Made by a program: the position numbers and the translations under genes
Part shown: piece by piece, positions 605 through 10,880 of the stretch
Layout: each line of letters opens with the position of its first letter
Position numbering within the stretch: position 1 is the first letter of the stretch
Notes under the pieces: model-generated
Told to the model about the DNA's origin: nothing
Seen by the model: only the letters and a program-made list of their open reading frames with translations
Database searches by the model: none
DNA from: an uncultured Pseudomonadota bacterium
GTDB taxonomy: Bacteria; Pseudomonadota; Alphaproteobacteria; Rs-D84
Length of the DNA stretch: 64,000 nucleotides
Reading direction: 5' to 3'
NCBI GenBank assembly: GCA_902798205.1
Contig: CADBVV010000002.1
Span: 66,056 to 130,055, forward strand

Positions 605-1564
605 TTACTGATTATCCAAAATGTCTTTCAATTCAATCATGTCGTCTGGCATATGGGCTTTAAAGTGCATTTTTTCACCAGTTATTGGATGCACAAATTC
701 CAAAATTTCTGCATGCAACATTTGTCCATTGTGATTTTTCAAAAATTCCAGCAATTCTGGATCTTTTACAGAACCAATATGCCCCTTTTCACGACCATAA
801 AGCGGGTCACACAAAACAGGAAAACCATGCGAAGATAAATGCACCCTGATTTGATGTGTTCGACCCGTCATTAATGTGCAACGAAACATCGAAATTCCAG
901 GTCTGGTCCAAGCGTCCATAACATTGACTATTGTGTGTGCCGGTTTGCCCCCAGTTTTAACCAAACTCATTTTTTGACGATTGCGTGATGAACGTGCAAT
1001 ATTTCCAGTGATTTCTGCCCCGCCCCACGTTGGAACACCCCAAACAAACGCAACATATTTACGTGTTAAATCGTGCGTCGAAAAAATCTTTACCAAACCA
1101 CGATATGCGGCATCACTTTTTGCAAAAACCATTGCACCACTGGTATCTTTGTCCAAACGATGAACAACCCCCGGACGTGTTTGTCCACCCAGCGCAGACA
1201 AATGTGTATAAGCCAACAAATTTTGAACCAGTGTTCCTGTTTTATTACCAGCACTTGGGTACATAACGACACCACGCGGTTTATTAATCACGATAATATC
1301 ATCGTCTTCGTATAAAATTTCTAAATCAAAATCACTGGAAATATTATCATACGCAACATCAGTTTGTTTTTCGGCAATTTCAACCGTAAATTCATCGTTC
1401 AACTTTGTTTTTTCTGATAATTTCAAAGCCTTGCCATCCGGGCGTGTGATATTAAATTTTTGAATTTCACTGCGCGAAAATTCAGGCATACAAATCGATA
1501 AAAATTTATCAATTCTTACACCAACATTTTCTTCATTAACAGAAAAAGTTCTTGTATCTGTCAT
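605..1564 (-). CDS. rluD: RluD-family 23S rRNA pseudouridine synthase
   Basis: 319 aa. It isomerises uridines of 23S rRNA (RluD class: helix 69) to pseudouridine in the cytoplasm. An N-terminal S4 RNA-binding domain covers about residues 15-60, followed by the catalytic domain with HRLDKDTSG at 135-143; Asp138 is the expected nucleophile. Further family signatures are NKPRGV near 94 and GRTHQIRVH in the C-terminal half. The frame extends upstream to 1600, but the ATG at 1564 overlaps the stop of the preceding gene as TAATG and gives the usual family N-terminus, so I start there. It is the last gene of a co-directional run that begins with the prepilin genes. RluC and RluD are hard to tell apart by eye; the length and motif spacing favour RluD. 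Confidence 0.9.
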   Translation of the reverse strand: MTDTRTFSVNEENVGVRIDKFLSICMPEFSRSEIQKFNITRPDGKALKLSEKTKLNDEFTVEIAEKQTDVAYDNISSDFDLEILYEDDDIIVINKPRGVVMYPSAGNKTGTLVQNLLAYTHLSALGGQTRPGVVHRLDKDTSGAMVFAKSDAAYRGLVKIFSTHDLTRKYVAFVWGVPTWGGAEITGNIARSSRNRQKMSLVKTGGKPAHTIVNVMDAWTRPGISMFRCTLMTGRTHQIRVHLSSHGFPVLCDPLYGREKGHIGSVKDPELLEFLKNHNGQMLHAEILEFVHPITGEKMHFKAHMPDDMIELKDILDNQ

Positions 1565-2037
1565 TATCTGTATTCCGTCCAATCTGGCCCCTGTTCGCAT
1601 TTTGAAATATCAATTGTAAAATTACGATTGCCTTCGATTGGGCAAGTCAAAATTCCTGTCGAACGTGCCTGGGTTGCATCTTCGGTTGCATTACGCCATG
1701 CAAAAGAAATTGTATCTGGTTTATAAACACAAACTATGCGTAAATTTCCAGACATTTTTCCATTTGGTGAAAGCCACACGCGAACACTGTCCGCTTCGCC
1801 ATAACATGGAAACGAATCCAGGTAATATAATACCAGACCTTCTTTTACAAATTTTTTATCCACACCCCGTACTGTTCCTGTATATTGACGCAATGATAAA
1901 CCCGTTACAGCTTCCCAATCAACAGTTGTTGAAAACACACTAACGCGTGGTACCGGCATTGGTGGAATTGGTGGCACAACATCTGCAAATGTTGGCAAAC
2001 AAATTATTGATAAAATTATCGATGTTAAAAATCTCAT
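1564..2037 (-). CDS. Small secreted protein of unknown function
   Basis: 157 aa with a clear signal peptide (residues 1-18, ending TFA) followed by a Pro/Val-rich stretch (VVPPIPPMPVP), so it is probably periplasmic or surface-exposed. Four cysteines remain in the mature protein, compatible with disulfides. No family recognised. It overlaps the zinc-ribbon gene upstream by four bases (ATGA) and rluD downstream by one base (TAATG), so translation is likely coupled with both. Being packed between the prepilin-gene run and rluD, it may serve the pilus-like system, but only the context suggests this. Confidence 0.8.
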   Translation of the reverse strand: MRFLTSIILSIICLPTFADVVPPIPPMPVPRVSVFSTTVDWEAVTGLSLRQYTGTVRGVDKKFVKEGLVLYYLDSFPCYGEADSVRVWLSPNGKMSGNLRIVCVYKPDTISFAWRNATEDATQARSTGILTCPIEGNRNFTIDISKCEQGPDWTEYR

Positions 2038-2543
2038 TTTGTTCCCTTTAATTCAACAGACAATCTTTTCACATTTGTTGGATCCACAGATAACATATGA
2101 TTGAATGTGACTGTGGTTTTAGATTCAATTAATGTTGCCGGTGGCATAAAGGTCTGACGCGACAAAACATTACCAACCGCGTCATAGGAAATAATTATTA
2201 TATTCGGCAAACCATATATGTCATCTGTGGTGTTTGTGATATCACCAGATACAAAAATACGGTTGTTGCCATTTTCATCCAATACGGTGTGTATATTTTT
2301 TTCATCAATTTTTGTCACCAATGGTTGACTTTTCTTAACCCCAGAAAAATTCAAAATAACCACCAATGAAAATATGCATGCCGCAATAAAAGCACATGCC
2401 GCAGCAATAAACTTTATCATCGTTTGTTGGCGAAATGGAACACGCGGGGTCCACACATGGCCACACACCGCACATTTAACAGGTTTGGTTGGCGTATGAT
2501 CCAAAACATATTCTGTTTTACAAAAATCACATACTATTTTCAT
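2034..2543 (-). CDS. Zinc-ribbon (MJ0042-type) single-pass membrane protein
   Basis: 169 aa. The N-terminus has two CxxC pairs (Cys5/Cys8 and Cys24/Cys27), with the Cys-x2-Cys-x15-Cys-x2-Cys spacing of MJ0042-type zinc ribbons common at the start of alphaproteobacterial membrane proteins. One transmembrane helix follows at about 41-66, then a C-terminal domain of about 100 residues that should be periplasmic and resembles the DUF3426-type extracytoplasmic domain. Thus the ribbon is cytoplasmic and the larger domain is outside. The role is unknown. It starts 37 bases after the last prepilin gene and overlaps the next gene by ATGA, so it belongs to the same transcription unit. Confidence 0.8.
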   Translation of the reverse strand: MKIVCDFCKTEYVLDHTPTKPVKCAVCGHVWTPRVPFRQQTMIKFIAAACAFIAACIFSLVVILNFSGVKKSQPLVTKIDEKNIHTVLDENGNNRIFVSGDITNTTDDIYGLPNIIIISYDAVGNVLSRQTFMPPATLIESKTTVTFNHMLSVDPTNVKRLSVELKGTK

Positions 2544-2580: not shown

Positions 2581-3894
2581 TTACAAATTCAACATTTCAT
2601 ATTTAGCACGTATTTGTGTCTGCATATTGTTTATCGCATTTATATAATCTGCAACCGTGGCATTCGCATTTGCCGCAACACCACCAAAAACAGTTGTCGC
2701 AACCGTCCCAGAAACAAATTCTTGTGACATTATAAGCGATGCCATACGAGAAAGTTCTGGTGAATTTATATCTACAAAACGCGCTTTGCCATTTTTTACA
2801 TCCCAATAGAAAGAAGAATCTTTGGAATCTTGAATCTTGTCTGTGATGTTTAATTGTGGTGTTACCGATCCGGTATAACCAACAGATACATATGTTGCAC
2901 TTACGCGCCCCATTACCAAATCCATATCACCAATTATTTTTAACGCCGAAGATTTTCCTTCCGTGCTTGCAACACTGAAGCCACTTAATGTTAATGTATT
3001 AACATACAAATCATTTGTCGTGAAAGACGAAAATTTTGCAGAATCTGCCAACGACAATGTCCCGTTAACACTTAAATTTCTGGAATCCGCTGTCAACGCC
3101 CCGTTTATAACAGCAATATTTGTTGAATATGTCGAATCAATTGTTGCACGATTGGCAAAAACCAAAGAAGAAACATCTAATTTTCCAACCTTTAATTTTT
3201 CTTCAAATTGCGCTTTGTACGCATCAACGAAACGAACATCTTTGATATCATGTCCATCTAAATTTAATGCAGATTGCATTGTTGCATCATCTTCACTTTC
3301 AGATGGCAAACGCCATAAATATTCTGTATTTCCACGTTTTACATTTGTTGTGCCAACCAAACCTTTTGCGTTTGATATTCCAAAATCAGCCGCCGATCCA
3401 CGAAACGCACCAAATCCACCATATGTCATATTGCCTTCGACAAAGCCAAATCTGCCACCACCCAAATTTACAATTTCACGTGTACGCATTGGGGACATTT
3501 CCCGATTGGATAAAAGCACTATTCCTTGCAATATCGATTTATTGTTATTATCAGAAGATTTTAAAATTCTTAATTGATAATCATCACCATAAGTGTCCGC
3601 AATATATTCTGGCAAACCATAATTTACCAAATCTGCCACTTTTATGCTGGATATATTTTTACCCTTTGGTCGCATTAATTCAGTTTTATTTTCAACAATA
3701 TATCTTTCCAGCGCACTTTGAACATTTTCCATCTGTTTGGTTATCGCAACATTTTTTGCACGCGATACGGCCGTTTGTTGATAACGAAACACAAACGGAA
3801 TGATTATTGCAGCCAATGCAATAGTCATCATCAATTCAACCAACATTCCACCATGCTGGGTATTTTTACAGAAAAGATTTCGTTTTGTATTCAT
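2581..3894 (-). CDS. PilV-like prepilin / pilus tip adhesin-like protein (third of tandem)
   Basis: 437 aa. A short basic leader ends in HGG, followed by MLVELMMTIALAAIIIPF, a type IV prepilin N-terminus. Cleavage between the two glycines would put Glu at position +5. Next comes a pilin alpha-helix (ENVQSALERYIVENK), then a block with YGLPEYIADTYGDDYQL that matches the pattern of the conserved N-terminal domain of PilV/shufflon pilins, then about 250 residues rich in Ser/Thr/Asn/Gly and beta-prone segments. Likely a minor pilin or tip adhesin inserted through a type IVb-like machine. The start is ATG 3894, overlapping the previous stop as TAATG; an upstream in-frame ATG at 3909 would only lengthen the leader. 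Its sequence differs widely from its two neighbours while sharing their architecture. Confidence 0.7.
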   Translation of the reverse strand: MNTKRNLFCKNTQHGGMLVELMMTIALAAIIIPFVFRYQQTAVSRAKNVAITKQMENVQSALERYIVENKTELMRPKGKNISSIKVADLVNYGLPEYIADTYGDDYQLRILKSSDNNNKSILQGIVLLSNREMSPMRTREIVNLGGGRFGFVEGNMTYGGFGAFRGSAADFGISNAKGLVGTTNVKRGNTEYLWRLPSESEDDATMQSALNLDGHDIKDVRFVDAYKAQFEEKLKVGKLDVSSLVFANRATIDSTYSTNIAVINGALTADSRNLSVNGTLSLADSAKFSSFTTNDLYVNTLTLSGFSVASTEGKSSALKIIGDMDLVMGRVSATYVSVGYTGSVTPQLNITDKIQDSKDSSFYWDVKNGKARFVDINSPELSRMASLIMSQEFVSGTVATTVFGGVAANANATVADYINAINNMQTQIRAKYEMLNL

Positions 3895-5099
3895 TATCTT
3901 GTATGCCAATTTTGTTCTGTTATTTTATCAAATTCATCTGCGTCTGGTGTTGGTGGCACAGATGCACGTGTTAATATCAATTTTGAAAACGATGGTGGCG
4001 TTGTTGATGGAAACACCCAATTTCCAATTCTTAAAGGTGCCTTACCCGCCAACAATAATTCGCCAGATACGGTTATACCAAAATTTTCAAAAAACACTAA
4101 ATCGGTTGCGGATAAATATGGCGTTAATAATTTATTCATTGATATACCACTGAACCCAGAAACACTTCGACCACTGGAAGATTTCAAAACCAGGTTTCCC
4201 GCAACATTAACGGAATTCCCAATTGTTGCACGATCCACAATTAATTTACCATTTGTTGTATACTTACTGTCATTTAAAACATCTGCTTTGATAAGTCTGA
4301 ATCCACTGGTATCACCCGTCACACGCATAGAAGAAAATGTTATATTATCAGAATTCATATTTGCCCCAGATGTAAAATAAACACTGCCAGCATCAACAAC
4401 ATCTGATTCAAGGAACACTGCATCAACATCTATGATTTTGGCAGAAAGACCATTTATTTTTGCGGCATTAAATACATTAAAATTATTCATATGCAAATCA
4501 CGTTGCATTTTATTTAATTCATCTTCACCCATGGTGCCACGATGTAAAAACCTTGATTTATCTGCCCCTTCGAAATCATAAGATATTCTGAAAATCAAAT
4601 CACCAACATAAAAATCATCTGGCGCAGAAACGGCCCAACTTTGTGAATATGCAATTCCATCTTCACGAACGACTGCGGCATCTTCACCAATCTGTTTTGC
4701 AATATTCGCCGCCCTGTAATCAGAACCATTCATACTAAATGCCAAATAAACATCACTTATGGACGCACCATTTACTTTGTATTTATCAACATATCCACTG
4801 TGCGGCAAAGACGATATTTTTTGTAATTCTTCATCAGACAATTTTATTTCCGCAACATCGGCCCATTTTTCTTGGTTGATACGAATATAATTTATCGCTG
4901 CATCACGCAAATTAACAATTTCATTGGCACGCGCAATATCTTCTGATTCATTGGACATTTCAATAATTTGATTATACATAAATGGCGACACAGCAATTAC
5001 AACAGCAATCGCCAAAACCACTTCGGTCAAGGTTGCACCACGAACACTATACGCATTCAATCTGTCAAAATATTTTTTACATACAATCACTGCGACCAC
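3894..5099 (-). CDS. PilV-like prepilin / pilus tip adhesin-like protein (second of tandem)
   Basis: 401 aa from a GTG start at 5099 (GTG at 5090 is an alternative). The leader ends SVRG, followed by ATLTEVVLAIAVVIAVSPF, an almost ideal class prepilin motif with Gly-1 and Glu+5. The pilin helix (about 40-75) leads into a PilV-like core (LSDEELQKISSLPHSGYVDKY) and a long passenger rich in Ser, Asn and Asp. The first codons overlap the end of the upstream prepilin gene by 23 bases, and the stop overlaps the next ATG, so the three genes look translationally coupled. The C-terminal part has no family I recognise; it could be a receptor-binding or oligomerising tip domain. Confidence 0.7.
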   Translation of the reverse strand: MVAVIVCKKYFDRLNAYSVRGATLTEVVLAIAVVIAVSPFMYNQIIEMSNESEDIARANEIVNLRDAAINYIRINQEKWADVAEIKLSDEELQKISSLPHSGYVDKYKVNGASISDVYLAFSMNGSDYRAANIAKQIGEDAAVVREDGIAYSQSWAVSAPDDFYVGDLIFRISYDFEGADKSRFLHRGTMGEDELNKMQRDLHMNNFNVFNAAKINGLSAKIIDVDAVFLESDVVDAGSVYFTSGANMNSDNITFSSMRVTGDTSGFRLIKADVLNDSKYTTNGKLIVDRATIGNSVNVAGNLVLKSSSGRSVSGFSGISMNKLLTPYLSATDLVFFENFGITVSGELLLAGKAPLRIGNWVFPSTTPPSFSKLILTRASVPPTPDADEFDKITEQNWHTR

Positions 5100-6429
5100 T
5101 TTTTAAACATTGTTTTATATCTATTCTTGCTTCTAATCTTTGCCAAAAAACATACTGACAAATTATATTTTGAACCAAAGATTTGCTGTTATATGCAACA
5201 TCCATTTGATTTATAATATCTCTACAAGAAATCTTTTTTCCTGTTGTATCTTTTGGATCTGCGATAATTTCAAAAGAATCATTGTTTATTCCATCAACAT
5301 ATGCATCTGGCAAAAGTGAAGTTCCGGCCGGTCGCACATCTATCAATAATGGACCAGATTGTCCATCCAACAACCCATACGAAGTTTGATCACGCAAAGA
5401 AATATTTGCGGCATAAATATTTTTAACATCTATACCCGTTTTTGATGCGTATGAAAAACTTTCTGGATCAATATAAACATCTTGACCACGCGAAGCGTCA
5501 AGATATGAACCTATGTCCAACCTGTCAACATTGAAAGTAAAATTATCAGCCAACACAGAACCACGCACCAACCATTGGGACGGACCATCAAATCCTGTGC
5601 GTCCTTCTGACATAGAAAAATCATACACAGATGCAACATTTGATTCAAAACCACCAGTTGTTCCAAACCTTGAAATTGTTCGCAATGACGCAGAAGAAGT
5701 TTTTATTTCACCACGCGAAAGCGATAATGCCGCACCACCATCTGCACTTTGAAATACCGTTTTGTTTGCATATAAATCAGAAATTTTATTTTTATCTTTT
5801 CTGCCTTCTTCTATGCCATAAAGCGACAATGTGTTAAATTGTGCACTTTCAAATTCACCATTACGTGCAAACAACACGCCAACCTTATCAACATTTTTAT
5901 CGTTCATATCTAATTCAGACAAAAATCCAACATTTTCGCCTGTTTCTTTTTTGGAAACTATATCGCTGTACATGGCATCTATTGGTATATCGACTTCTAT
6001 GTTATTTCCTTTGATTTTTGCATAAAAACCTATTCTGCGGGCCAATTCAGCCAACTGAATTTTGGATAATTTTCCGCCACTGACATTTATAAAACCATAA
6101 AAACTGTTTTCATCTTTGTTTATAACCAAAGAAATATCTTGATTAAAATGTGTTTGCGGTATAAACCCAAGTGGCAATCCATAATTTTCCAATACTTCGA
6201 CAAAATGTTCTTTGCTTAATTCTTGTCTTTTATATGGCAGATTATCCTTTTCTTCGCGCAAATAAATACGCGCAGCAGTTTGCGCAGTTTCAATTTGTTC
6301 TGTCGCAGCATACATTTGGGCGGCCATATCACGCGACGAAATACGACGGGCAAAAAACGGCATAAAAGCAAAGACCAAAGTCAATGCCAGCAATGCTTGC
6401 AGTAAAAAATTACCCGATTGTTTTTGCAA
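5077..6429 (-). CDS. PilV-like prepilin / pilus tip adhesin-like protein (first of tandem; Gln at +5)
   Basis: 450 aa from a TTG start at 6429. The frame has an ATG at 6456, but that ATG lies inside a near-perfect -10 box, and an exceptional Shine-Dalgarno (GGAGGGAGG, 6432-6440) precedes the TTG, so TTG is the better start. This leaves a five-residue leader (QKQSG) before NFLLQALLALTLVFAFMPFF. The usual Glu+5 of type IV prepilins is replaced by Gln. After the pilin helix comes a PilV-like block (ENYGLPLGFIPQTHF, then SGGKLSKIQLAELARRIGFY), then a beta-prone passenger. It is the promoter-proximal gene of the operon. Minor pilins at the tip of type II secretion pseudopili (GspK) also lack Glu5, which fits a tip position, but that is analogy. 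Confidence 0.72.
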   Translation of the reverse strand: MQKQSGNFLLQALLALTLVFAFMPFFARRISSRDMAAQMYAATEQIETAQTAARIYLREEKDNLPYKRQELSKEHFVEVLENYGLPLGFIPQTHFNQDISLVINKDENSFYGFINVSGGKLSKIQLAELARRIGFYAKIKGNNIEVDIPIDAMYSDIVSKKETGENVGFLSELDMNDKNVDKVGVLFARNGEFESAQFNTLSLYGIEEGRKDKNKISDLYANKTVFQSADGGAALSLSRGEIKTSSASLRTISRFGTTGGFESNVASVYDFSMSEGRTGFDGPSQWLVRGSVLADNFTFNVDRLDIGSYLDASRGQDVYIDPESFSYASKTGIDVKNIYAANISLRDQTSYGLLDGQSGPLLIDVRPAGTSLLPDAYVDGINNDSFEIIADPKDTTGKKISCRDIINQMDVAYNSKSLVQNIICQYVFWQRLEARIDIKQCLKSGRSDCM

Positions 6430-8513: not shown

Positions 8514-8969
8514 ATGAGGGAACAATCTGGACGTTCATTAATTGAAATTATTGGGGTCCTGGCCATTGGTGCAATTATGGTTTCTGGGACCTATGCAATA
8601 TATAATTCTACAAATGCAAAACAAAAAAGATTAATCGCATCAACAGAATTGGAAAATATCGCAACAAAAACCAAAACATTGTTGGAATATTCTGGATATA
8701 CACCTGTATCTGTTGATTTTTTAATCGAAGCCGGCGCATTAACAAATGATAAAGCACCAGCAGGTGGAAAAAATTGGTCCATAACCAGTAATTTTGATGG
8801 TACAGAATTTTCAATCAATTTGGTTGAATTAACATTTGATGAATGTGCATATTTCACAACAAAAAAATTAGATTGGACAACACATATTACTGTTAACGGA
8901 TATGATGCAAACAGTTCATCGTATTGCTTACAAACTGGCGATAACACAATATCGTTTTTTGCAAAATAA
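8514..8969 (+). CDS. PilS-like type IV prepilin
   Basis: 151 aa with a strong ribosome-binding site (GGGGGAA). Residues 1-6 (MREQSG) form the leader; cleavage after Gly6 exposes RSLIEIIGVLAIGAIMVSG, with Glu at +5 and the GVLAIGAIM pattern typical of type IVb pilins (PilS family). A pilin helix (ELENIATKTKTLLEYSG) follows. The compact globular part ends with two cysteines (Cys122 and Cys137 by approximate count), placed like the C-terminal disulfide loop of type IV pilins. It is likely the major or a minor pilin that works with the PilV-like proteins encoded at 2.6-6.4 kb. No assembly ATPase, platform protein or prepilin peptidase is in this window. It sits between dnaX and an OmpA-type lipoprotein gene. 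Confidence 0.75.
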   Translation: MREQSGRSLIEIIGVLAIGAIMVSGTYAIYNSTNAKQKRLIASTELENIATKTKTLLEYSGYTPVSVDFLIEAGALTNDKAPAGGKNWSITSNFDGTEFSINLVELTFDECAYFTTKKLDWTTHITVNGYDANSSSYCLQTGDNTISFFAK

Positions 8970-8972
8970 GAC

Positions 8973-9653
8973 ATGAATTTAAAAAAAATAATTTTAATTG
9001 GTTTATGTTTTGCGCTGACGGGTTGCTTGCAATATCACAGTCCTGCCCGTAACACGTGGCAACAACATCTTTATGGCGCCAGCTTTATGGATATGACAGA
9101 AACCGCGCGCATTGCAAAAATGCCTGTATACATGGGACACGGTGGCAAAGTTGTTACACAAACTGGTGAATTATCCGAAAAAATGCAATACGGTGATAAA
9201 AACGCCATAGATAATGCTGTATTGGTAAATTACATGGCGAATCTAGAATATGAATTATATGACGCGTTACGCAAGCCTGGTATTTCTGTTCAACGCGCCG
9301 GCACAGATGTTGTTGTTATACTGGTTCGCGATTCAATTATGAATCAATCTGTTGCAGATATATCTGCGGATGGTGCCGATACACTTAAAACAATTTCGAA
9401 AATATTAAATAAATATAACGCAACATTTATGGAAATCGCAGGATACACAGATTCTATGAATGATAAAAATGCATCATATGCATTATCACTGGATATGGCA
9501 GAACGTGTTGGCGTATATTTTTCACAACATAATGTTTCTACATCACGCATGTTTATTGTCGGACGTGGTGCGGCACGACCAATCGCAGCCCAAGATGACA
9601 TAGGGCGCCTTACCAATCGTCGCGTTGAAATTCGATTGACGCCTGCCCGATAA
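8973..9653 (+). CDS. OmpA-family outer-membrane lipoprotein
   Basis: 226 aa. A lipobox (LTGC, Cys18) closes the signal peptide, so the mature protein is lipid-anchored. The N-terminal half is unrecognised. The C-terminal about 110 residues form an OmpA-like peptidoglycan-binding domain: AGYTD (Asp for the DAP carboxylate), then SLDMAERVGVYF, GRGAARPIA and NRRVEIRL. It should bridge outer membrane and cell wall. It starts three bases after the prepilin stop, so it may support the same surface machine; IcmN/DotK-type lipoproteins of type IVb systems have this layout, but so do many general lipoproteins. A canonical Pal is encoded separately near 35.5 kb. Confidence 0.8.
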   Translation: MNLKKIILIGLCFALTGCLQYHSPARNTWQQHLYGASFMDMTETARIAKMPVYMGHGGKVVTQTGELSEKMQYGDKNAIDNAVLVNYMANLEYELYDALRKPGISVQRAGTDVVVILVRDSIMNQSVADISADGADTLKTISKILNKYNATFMEIAGYTDSMNDKNASYALSLDMAERVGVYFSQHNVSTSRMFIVGRGAARPIAAQDDIGRLTNRRVEIRLTPAR

Positions 9654-10464: not shown

Positions 10465-10487
10465 GCATGTATAAAAAAGGAGTTGTT

Positions 10488-10880
10488 ATGTCTTTTAAAT
10501 CAGCAATAGACAAAGTAAAACAAATGTTCACAAACAATGTGGACGAACAAATGAAAAAAAATGAAGAATATTTACATAAAGCAACAAATGGTGCCACTGA
10601 ATTTCGCATTGTTGTAAAAAACAAAGTAACACCTTGTGTTTGTGTTTCTATTACACCGGGTTATGATATTGATCATATACAAGAATTATACGGCAAAATC
10701 GGTATAAAATTACACAAACATATTTTAAGACGCGGCAATATGCGCTTTAATGTTTTGTATATTAAATCATCAGATTACGCAAAATTGGATGCAAAACATC
10801 AAAAGTTCTTTACGCGCACAACATCTAATAACAAAATTTATAAACAAAACCTGACATACGCTGAAAAAAAAGAAAGATAA
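10488..10880 (+). CDS. Small basic protein of unknown function
   Basis: 130 aa starting at ATG 10488, chosen because AAAGGAG lies five bases before it; an ATG at 10467 would fall within the likely 5' leader. Highly charged and Lys-rich, with an N-terminal helical part (SAIDKVKQMF) and a central beta-prone part (RIVVKNKVTPCVCVSITPG). No signal peptide or membrane segment. I do not recognise the family. It is a monocistronic unit with its own consensus promoter and a strong terminator, so it is probably expressed in its own right. Confidence 0.7.
   Translation: MSFKSAIDKVKQMFTNNVDEQMKKNEEYLHKATNGATEFRIVVKNKVTPCVCVSITPGYDIDHIQELYGKIGIKLHKHILRRGNMRFNVLYIKSSDYAKLDAKHQKFFTRTTSNNKIYKQNLTYAEKKER

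Follow-up and report, generated by a model that had tools for sequence, protein, structure and literature searches.

Three tandem minor pilins, BfpI, BfpJ and BfpK, belong to the type IVb bundle-forming pilus; they are small and are not PilV-core proteins. In the IncI plasmids (R64, TP114), a single pilV gene encodes a prepilin with a pilin domain, a second domain and a large C-terminal passenger, and is accompanied by a PilN/O/Q/R-type machine, a shufflon and an adjacent rci gene. Type IVb systems normally have fewer minor pilins than type IVa systems and carry a tip trimer of CofB (PMC10191384); the tip of the toxin-coregulated pilus (TCP) and that of the colonization factor antigen III pilus (CFA/III) each consist of a homotrimer of one large minor pilin (PMC9565799, PMC10191384). 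In other type IV filaments, the core minor pilins form a tip complex that is capped by a subunit lacking the glutamate at position +5 (Glu5; PMC10191384). Here we analyze a 64,000-nucleotide stretch (the window) of contig CADBVV010000002.1 from an uncultured alphaproteobacterium of the order Rs-D84, in which three tandem genes, A, B and C, encode minor prepilins with a PilV core. With a probability of about 60%, we read A, B and C as three ancient paralogs whose products would jointly make up the tip, or initiation, complex of a type IVb pilus encoded on the chromosome.

The locus shares with the IncI system the prepilin N-terminus, the pilin and second domains and an LN-M-x-LxMxxxxIxN block, all of them co-linear, as well as a large C-terminal passenger and the type of machine. 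In contrast to the single plasmid gene, three paralogs occur here, which are chromosomal, lie apart from the pil genes, carry conserved passengers and fall below Pfam detection, with neither a shufflon nor an adjacent rci. Similarly, TcpB and CofB are large minor pilins with a pilin-like N-terminal domain, a large C-terminal part and a presumed tip position, but each is one homotrimeric protein (PMC9565799, PMC10191384) whereas the locus encodes three paralogs, and the passengers of A, B and C have no sequence match to the C-terminal domains of TcpB and CofB. The likeness to PilHIJK and GspHIJK lies in tandem core minor pilins, conserved across the order, of which one lacks Glu5 (in the family of this genome and in a family designated f4). 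However, all members here have a PilV-type core and a large passenger, the member without Glu5 is not universal, and the closest structural matches of A and C are type IVb-type pilins.

PilV-type core and prepilin features

Ortholog alignments were built for A, B and C, and a PilV alignment was built from R64, IncI2, IncK2, Serratia, Arsenophonus, Pantoea, Enterobacter and chromosomal loci. In profile-profile comparison (hhalign), all three proteins align co-linearly with the constant region of PilV over 180-260 columns, with E values of 2.6e-18 for C, the best match of the three, 1.2e-13 for B and 2.5e-11 for A. Removal of the N-terminal helix leaves values of 1.4e-13, 3.4e-8 and 2.7e-7 in the same order, and the helix-removed scores of 52-90 against real PilV compare with at most ~20 for reversed or column-shuffled PilV controls. 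The PilV-like stretch covers ~200-230 residues and includes the pilin domain, the second domain and the LN-M-x-LxMxxxxIxN block (pattern LN.M...L.M....I.N). Single-sequence scans with Pfam, PHROGs and NCBIfam give A-C no name, and Shufflon_N (PF04917) matches neither A, B or C at E ≤ 1 nor anything else in their genome. Among 32 homologs taken from outgroups and related families, seven do match this Pfam family at E ≤ 0.01, the best at 7.4e-7.

The initial annotation of the window had described three tandem, same-strand reading frames for PilV-like prepilins. This arrangement is borne out by overlapping frames in the window and in orthologous loci, and the homology to PilV extends beyond the helix, over a core longer than the 120 residues first assumed. 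The YGLP-type block ascribed to each protein is missing in its literal form from B, yet the second domain of B aligns well to PilV. The passengers are indeed long and mutually unrelated, with no profile similarity to one another or to the C-terminus of PilV, but they measure ~170-250 residues instead of 250-300.

All three proteins begin with a short polar leader that ends in Gly at position −1 and is followed by a hydrophobic helix, with the leader and cleavage sites MQKQSG^NFLLQALLAL in A, SVRG^ATLTEVVLAI in B and TQHG^GMLVELMMTI in C. Glu5 is kept in B and C, while Gln takes its place in A and in all 45 aligned orthologs. At this first position of the triplet, loss of Glu5 is limited to most of the family of this genome and family f4; because position 1 mostly keeps Glu in the other families, the missing Glu5 is no general rule in the order.

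AlphaFold2 models of A and C are reliable only in their initial 150-185 residues and in the helices at the C-terminus, and Foldseek alone found no significant match for either model. In a second-look structural alignment, the N-terminal part of A matched Clostridioides difficile PilW (Z 8.3), TcpA (Z 8.2) and the TCP filament (Z 8.0). In the same alignment, C matched the TCP filament (Z 7.5), the E. coli PilM entry 3eoi (Z 7.3), a C. difficile PilA1 fusion (Z 7.2) and, in its pilin part, TcpB (Z 6.5 over 124 residues). XcpV and XcpW lay at Z 5-6, under the type IVb-type pilins at 7-8, and non-pilin structures at Z ~4 to 5. These models support a type IVb pilin-like fold at the N-termini of A and C. 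The passengers were modelled with low confidence, and a sequence search of solved structures with the A, B and C profiles returned chance matches only. With a wider family profile, the helix matched geopilin and the passenger matched a phage tail fibre. Homology to the tail fibre was rejected, since the match consists of weak, repeat-like, separate stretches (E ~0.24) and serves at most as a hint that the passenger is fibrous.

Conservation of the triplet and the pilus machine

Gene A is present in 58 of the 59 genomes of the genus, and A, B and C are each single-copy orthologs conserved over their full length, passenger included. Mean pairwise identity is 0.53-0.62 for the passengers and 0.57-0.65 for the pilin parts, and the ratios of nonsynonymous to synonymous substitution (dN/dS) between close species are ~0.05-0.13 and 0.06-0.21, respectively. 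All 20 fetched loci have, where the contig allows, the order rluD, signal-peptide gene, zinc-ribbon gene, C, B and A, facing DUF4167, dnaX, the PilS-like gene, OmpA and OmpH. Genes A and B overlap by 8-14 nucleotides in every one of these loci (14 in the window, where the start codon of B lies inside the 3′ end of A), and B and C overlap or abut within a few bases in most (by 1 nucleotide in the window, TAATG). The related loci belong to Candidatus Enterousia and to further uncultured alphaproteobacteria, sampled in rumen, chicken, horse and other gut material. Beyond the genus, 16 loci were examined, from other genera and from five further families of the order; each of them has exactly three consecutive PilV-core genes, although the third runs off the contig in two. 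In a tree of the core, the position-2 genes of all six families fall into a single clade (22 sequences, support 0.88), PilV is separate (0.99), and the position-1 and position-3 genes mostly group by position. The division into three distinct subunits thus seems to be older than the order.

Loss of the triplet was considered for four metagenome-assembled genomes of the genus (G044, G067, G130 and G131) and rejected: the neighbouring essential gene dnaX is missing as well, which makes an assembly gap likelier. These four are rated 91-99% complete and lack dnaX together with the whole neighbouring stretch, which suggests a systematic gap of assembly or binning. Other alphaproteobacteria, not members of the order, encode much larger single PilV-core proteins at loci L272, L273 and L274 (853, at least 658 and 966 residues). 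A distant alphaproteobacterial genome outside the order, G632, also has three tandem PilV-core genes (L275 7049-12073, with L289 8412-10787), located ~10 kb from a prepilin-peptidase-like gene that adjoins dnaX.

The window genome, of Candidatus Enterousia type, measures 851 kb in 17 contigs. It encodes a PilN-type secretin (R64 PilN, phmmer 3e-38) with an adjoining TcpQ-domain protein, together with PAP_PilO and PilP-like coiled-coil proteins and, in one cluster, a PilQ-type ATPase (1e-43) and its PilR-type platform protein (1e-29). A short A24 prepilin peptidase lies at a separate site, as do two small PilS/TcpA-like prepilins, of which the window encodes one and contig C1 the other; both are found in most genomes of the genus, and the matches of the C1 protein to PilS (E 0.026) and TcpA (E 0.045) are below the cut-off. 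The biogenesis genes are scattered over at least five sites (two on C1, and C2, C3 and C8); their clustering is usual but not decisive (PMC10191384). Across the order, 139 of 142 genomes encode the secretin, as do all 20 genera sampled. The proposal of a chromosomal type IVb-like surface system, made from the window alone, thus gains its secretin, ATPase, platform, peptidase and PilO/TcpQ-type proteins elsewhere in the genome, while the suggested link of the OmpA lipoprotein to it is positional only. The combination named as its refutation, a lack of PilV similarity together with a lack of pilus assembly genes, does not apply.

In one genome of the genus, a tandem run of approximately seven or eight PilS-like small prepilin genes (G019:C1:15710-19805) takes the place of the single gene, and gene A is divergent. 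The search for a PilT-type retraction ATPase in the window genome found only PilQ-type and VirB11-type ATPases. The VirB11-like gene is a lone one (L006 10272-11267; G000:C4 ~90.8 kb), and type IV secretion genes around it were not searched for.

A proposed three-part tip and its alternatives

The proteins A, B and C look like fixed, integral components of a type IVb pilus, not like an exchangeable store of adhesins, and like three parts of one device rather than three alternative tips. Because the set is always three, in a fixed order and apparently co-translated, a heteromeric tip would be the simplest reading, and the triplet probably encodes an obligate three-subunit, likely heteromeric, minor-pilin tip complex. 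In such a complex, the prepilin peptidase would cut after the conserved Gly, and the three N-terminal helices would sit in the inner membrane while the three pilin domains pack side by side, most simply at 1:1:1, in place of a homotrimer of the TcpB/CofB type. The assembled tip may prime the pilus, with the PilQ-type ATPase and the PilR-type platform adding PilS-like subunits below it, and the fibre would exit via the PilN-type secretin carrying three unrelated passengers at its end. There, the passengers may contact a ligand that stays the same across the genus.

Several points weigh against this three-part tip. The pilus, the tip location and the heteromer are predictions from sequence, and all the organisms are uncultured, represented by metagenome-assembled genomes. 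The passengers, predicted at low confidence, differ in length and are mutually unrelated, positions 1 and 3 do not each form one clean clade in the core tree, and the loss of Glu5 that would suit a capping subunit is confined at position 1 to part of the order. In addition, one metagenome-assembled genome of the family (G122) has the machine, dnaX and the PilS-like gene, but no triplet was detected beside dnaX; it is possible that the triplet was truly lost or relocated there.

The initial annotation took the three genes as hard-wired adhesin variety that replaces a shufflon. They are instead fixed single-copy orthologs in a fixed order, in which purifying selection constrains passenger and pilin domain alike, and this idea is disfavoured because nothing varies. 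A shufflon at the locus itself was rejected, as the passenger ends of the locus carry no long inverted repeats, the one Rci-like (Xer-type) tyrosine recombinase in the genome is distant, and the passengers are conserved. On the view of hard-wired variety, each protein would form its own homotrimeric tip, which would provide several binding specificities without recombination. Three unrelated passengers on a shared PilV core would suit such alternative tips, as would the lack of any further PilV-core gene in the genome and its single, far-off recombinase. We nevertheless consider them quite unlikely, given the fixed order, constant co-occurrence and overlapping frames of the three genes, a copy number that is never 1, 2 or 4 in the 16 loci, and the strong conservation of the passengers between species of different origin (chicken, ruminant, horse and other gut samples).

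A conserved ligand would also follow if the pilus served DNA uptake, with the passengers or the whole tip binding or pulling in DNA. The genome encodes ComEC, DprA is found on the contig of the secretin, close to the secretin region, and the passengers are conserved irrespective of host. However, both ComEC and DprA are common proteins, a positively charged DNA-binding domain was not recognised, and a dedicated PilT-like retraction ATPase was not found, which together make this role rather unlikely. Very improbable, in our view, is a secretion-type pilus in the manner of TcpB/TcpF and CofB/CofJ, in which the tip would dock and export a soluble attachment factor and the passengers would bind this cargo. 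TcpB and CofB trimers do carry secreted proteins (PMC9565799), and the model of C matches TcpB in its pilin part, but no TcpF/CofJ-like cargo was recognised in a search that was not exhaustive, and the passengers do not match the C-terminal domains of TcpB or CofB in sequence.

Enterousia has been placed in the order Rs-D84, with genomes of ~1 Mb or less, and dependence on a partner has been suggested; type IV pili were reported for another lineage only, not for Enterousia, and hypothetical surface proteins may mediate partner contact (PMC12306168). The machine and the tip set are concrete candidates for this suggested partner-cell contact. We tentatively extend the three-part tip to the whole order of genome-reduced gut alphaproteobacteria, at somewhat less than even odds: in its type IVb pilus, an obligate heterotrimeric tip with three different, invariant passengers would have replaced the PilV/TcpB/CofB homotrimer and would act in attachment to partner cells or in the uptake of material from them. 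If true, the three conserved PilV-core paralogs would represent a hetero-tip that occurs in nature, opening the question of how PilV-type tips assemble. The triplet also provides a simple marker for the order.

Gene layout and neighbouring features

The coordinates of the locus and its neighbours are collected in Table 1. The TTG start of gene A, which is common to most orthologs, is preceded by a strong ribosome-binding site, AGGAGGGAGG. A, B and C are the first three of six same-strand genes ending in rluD, so that the proposed operon with rluD is reasonable, as judged here by gene layout alone. The zinc-ribbon/FxLYD gene and the signal-peptide gene between them may also be part of the pilus system.

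Table 1. Features of the triplet locus, in window coordinates.
Feature	Position	Strand	Remarks
Gene A, PilV-core minor prepilin	5077..6429	minus	450 residues; TTG start; Gln replaces Glu at +5; passenger with four invariant Cys
Gene B, PilV-core minor prepilin	3894..5090	minus	398 residues; GTG start; Glu5 present
Gene C, PilV-core minor prepilin	2581..3894	minus	437 residues; ATG start overlaps stop of B; Glu5 present; best PilV match of the three
MJ0042-type zinc-ribbon / membrane / FxLYD-like protein	2034..2543	minus	Adjoins C throughout the genus
Conserved signal-peptide protein, no assigned function	1564..2037	minus	Between zinc-ribbon gene and rluD throughout the genus
rluD-type pseudouridine synthase	605..1564	minus	Last of the overlapping series; ATG at 1564 overlaps preceding stop
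Small type IVb-like prepilin (PilS-like)	8514..8969	plus	Leader MREQSG^RSLIE; candidate major pilin 1; paralog at G000:C1:45393-45851
YiaD-like OmpA lipoprotein	8973..9653	plus	Always directly after the PilS-like gene; pilus link purely positional

Further along the window, next to infB, a small protein (10467-10880) has a marginal match to the Pfam AbiGi antitoxin family (23.7 bits; cut-off 22.4).

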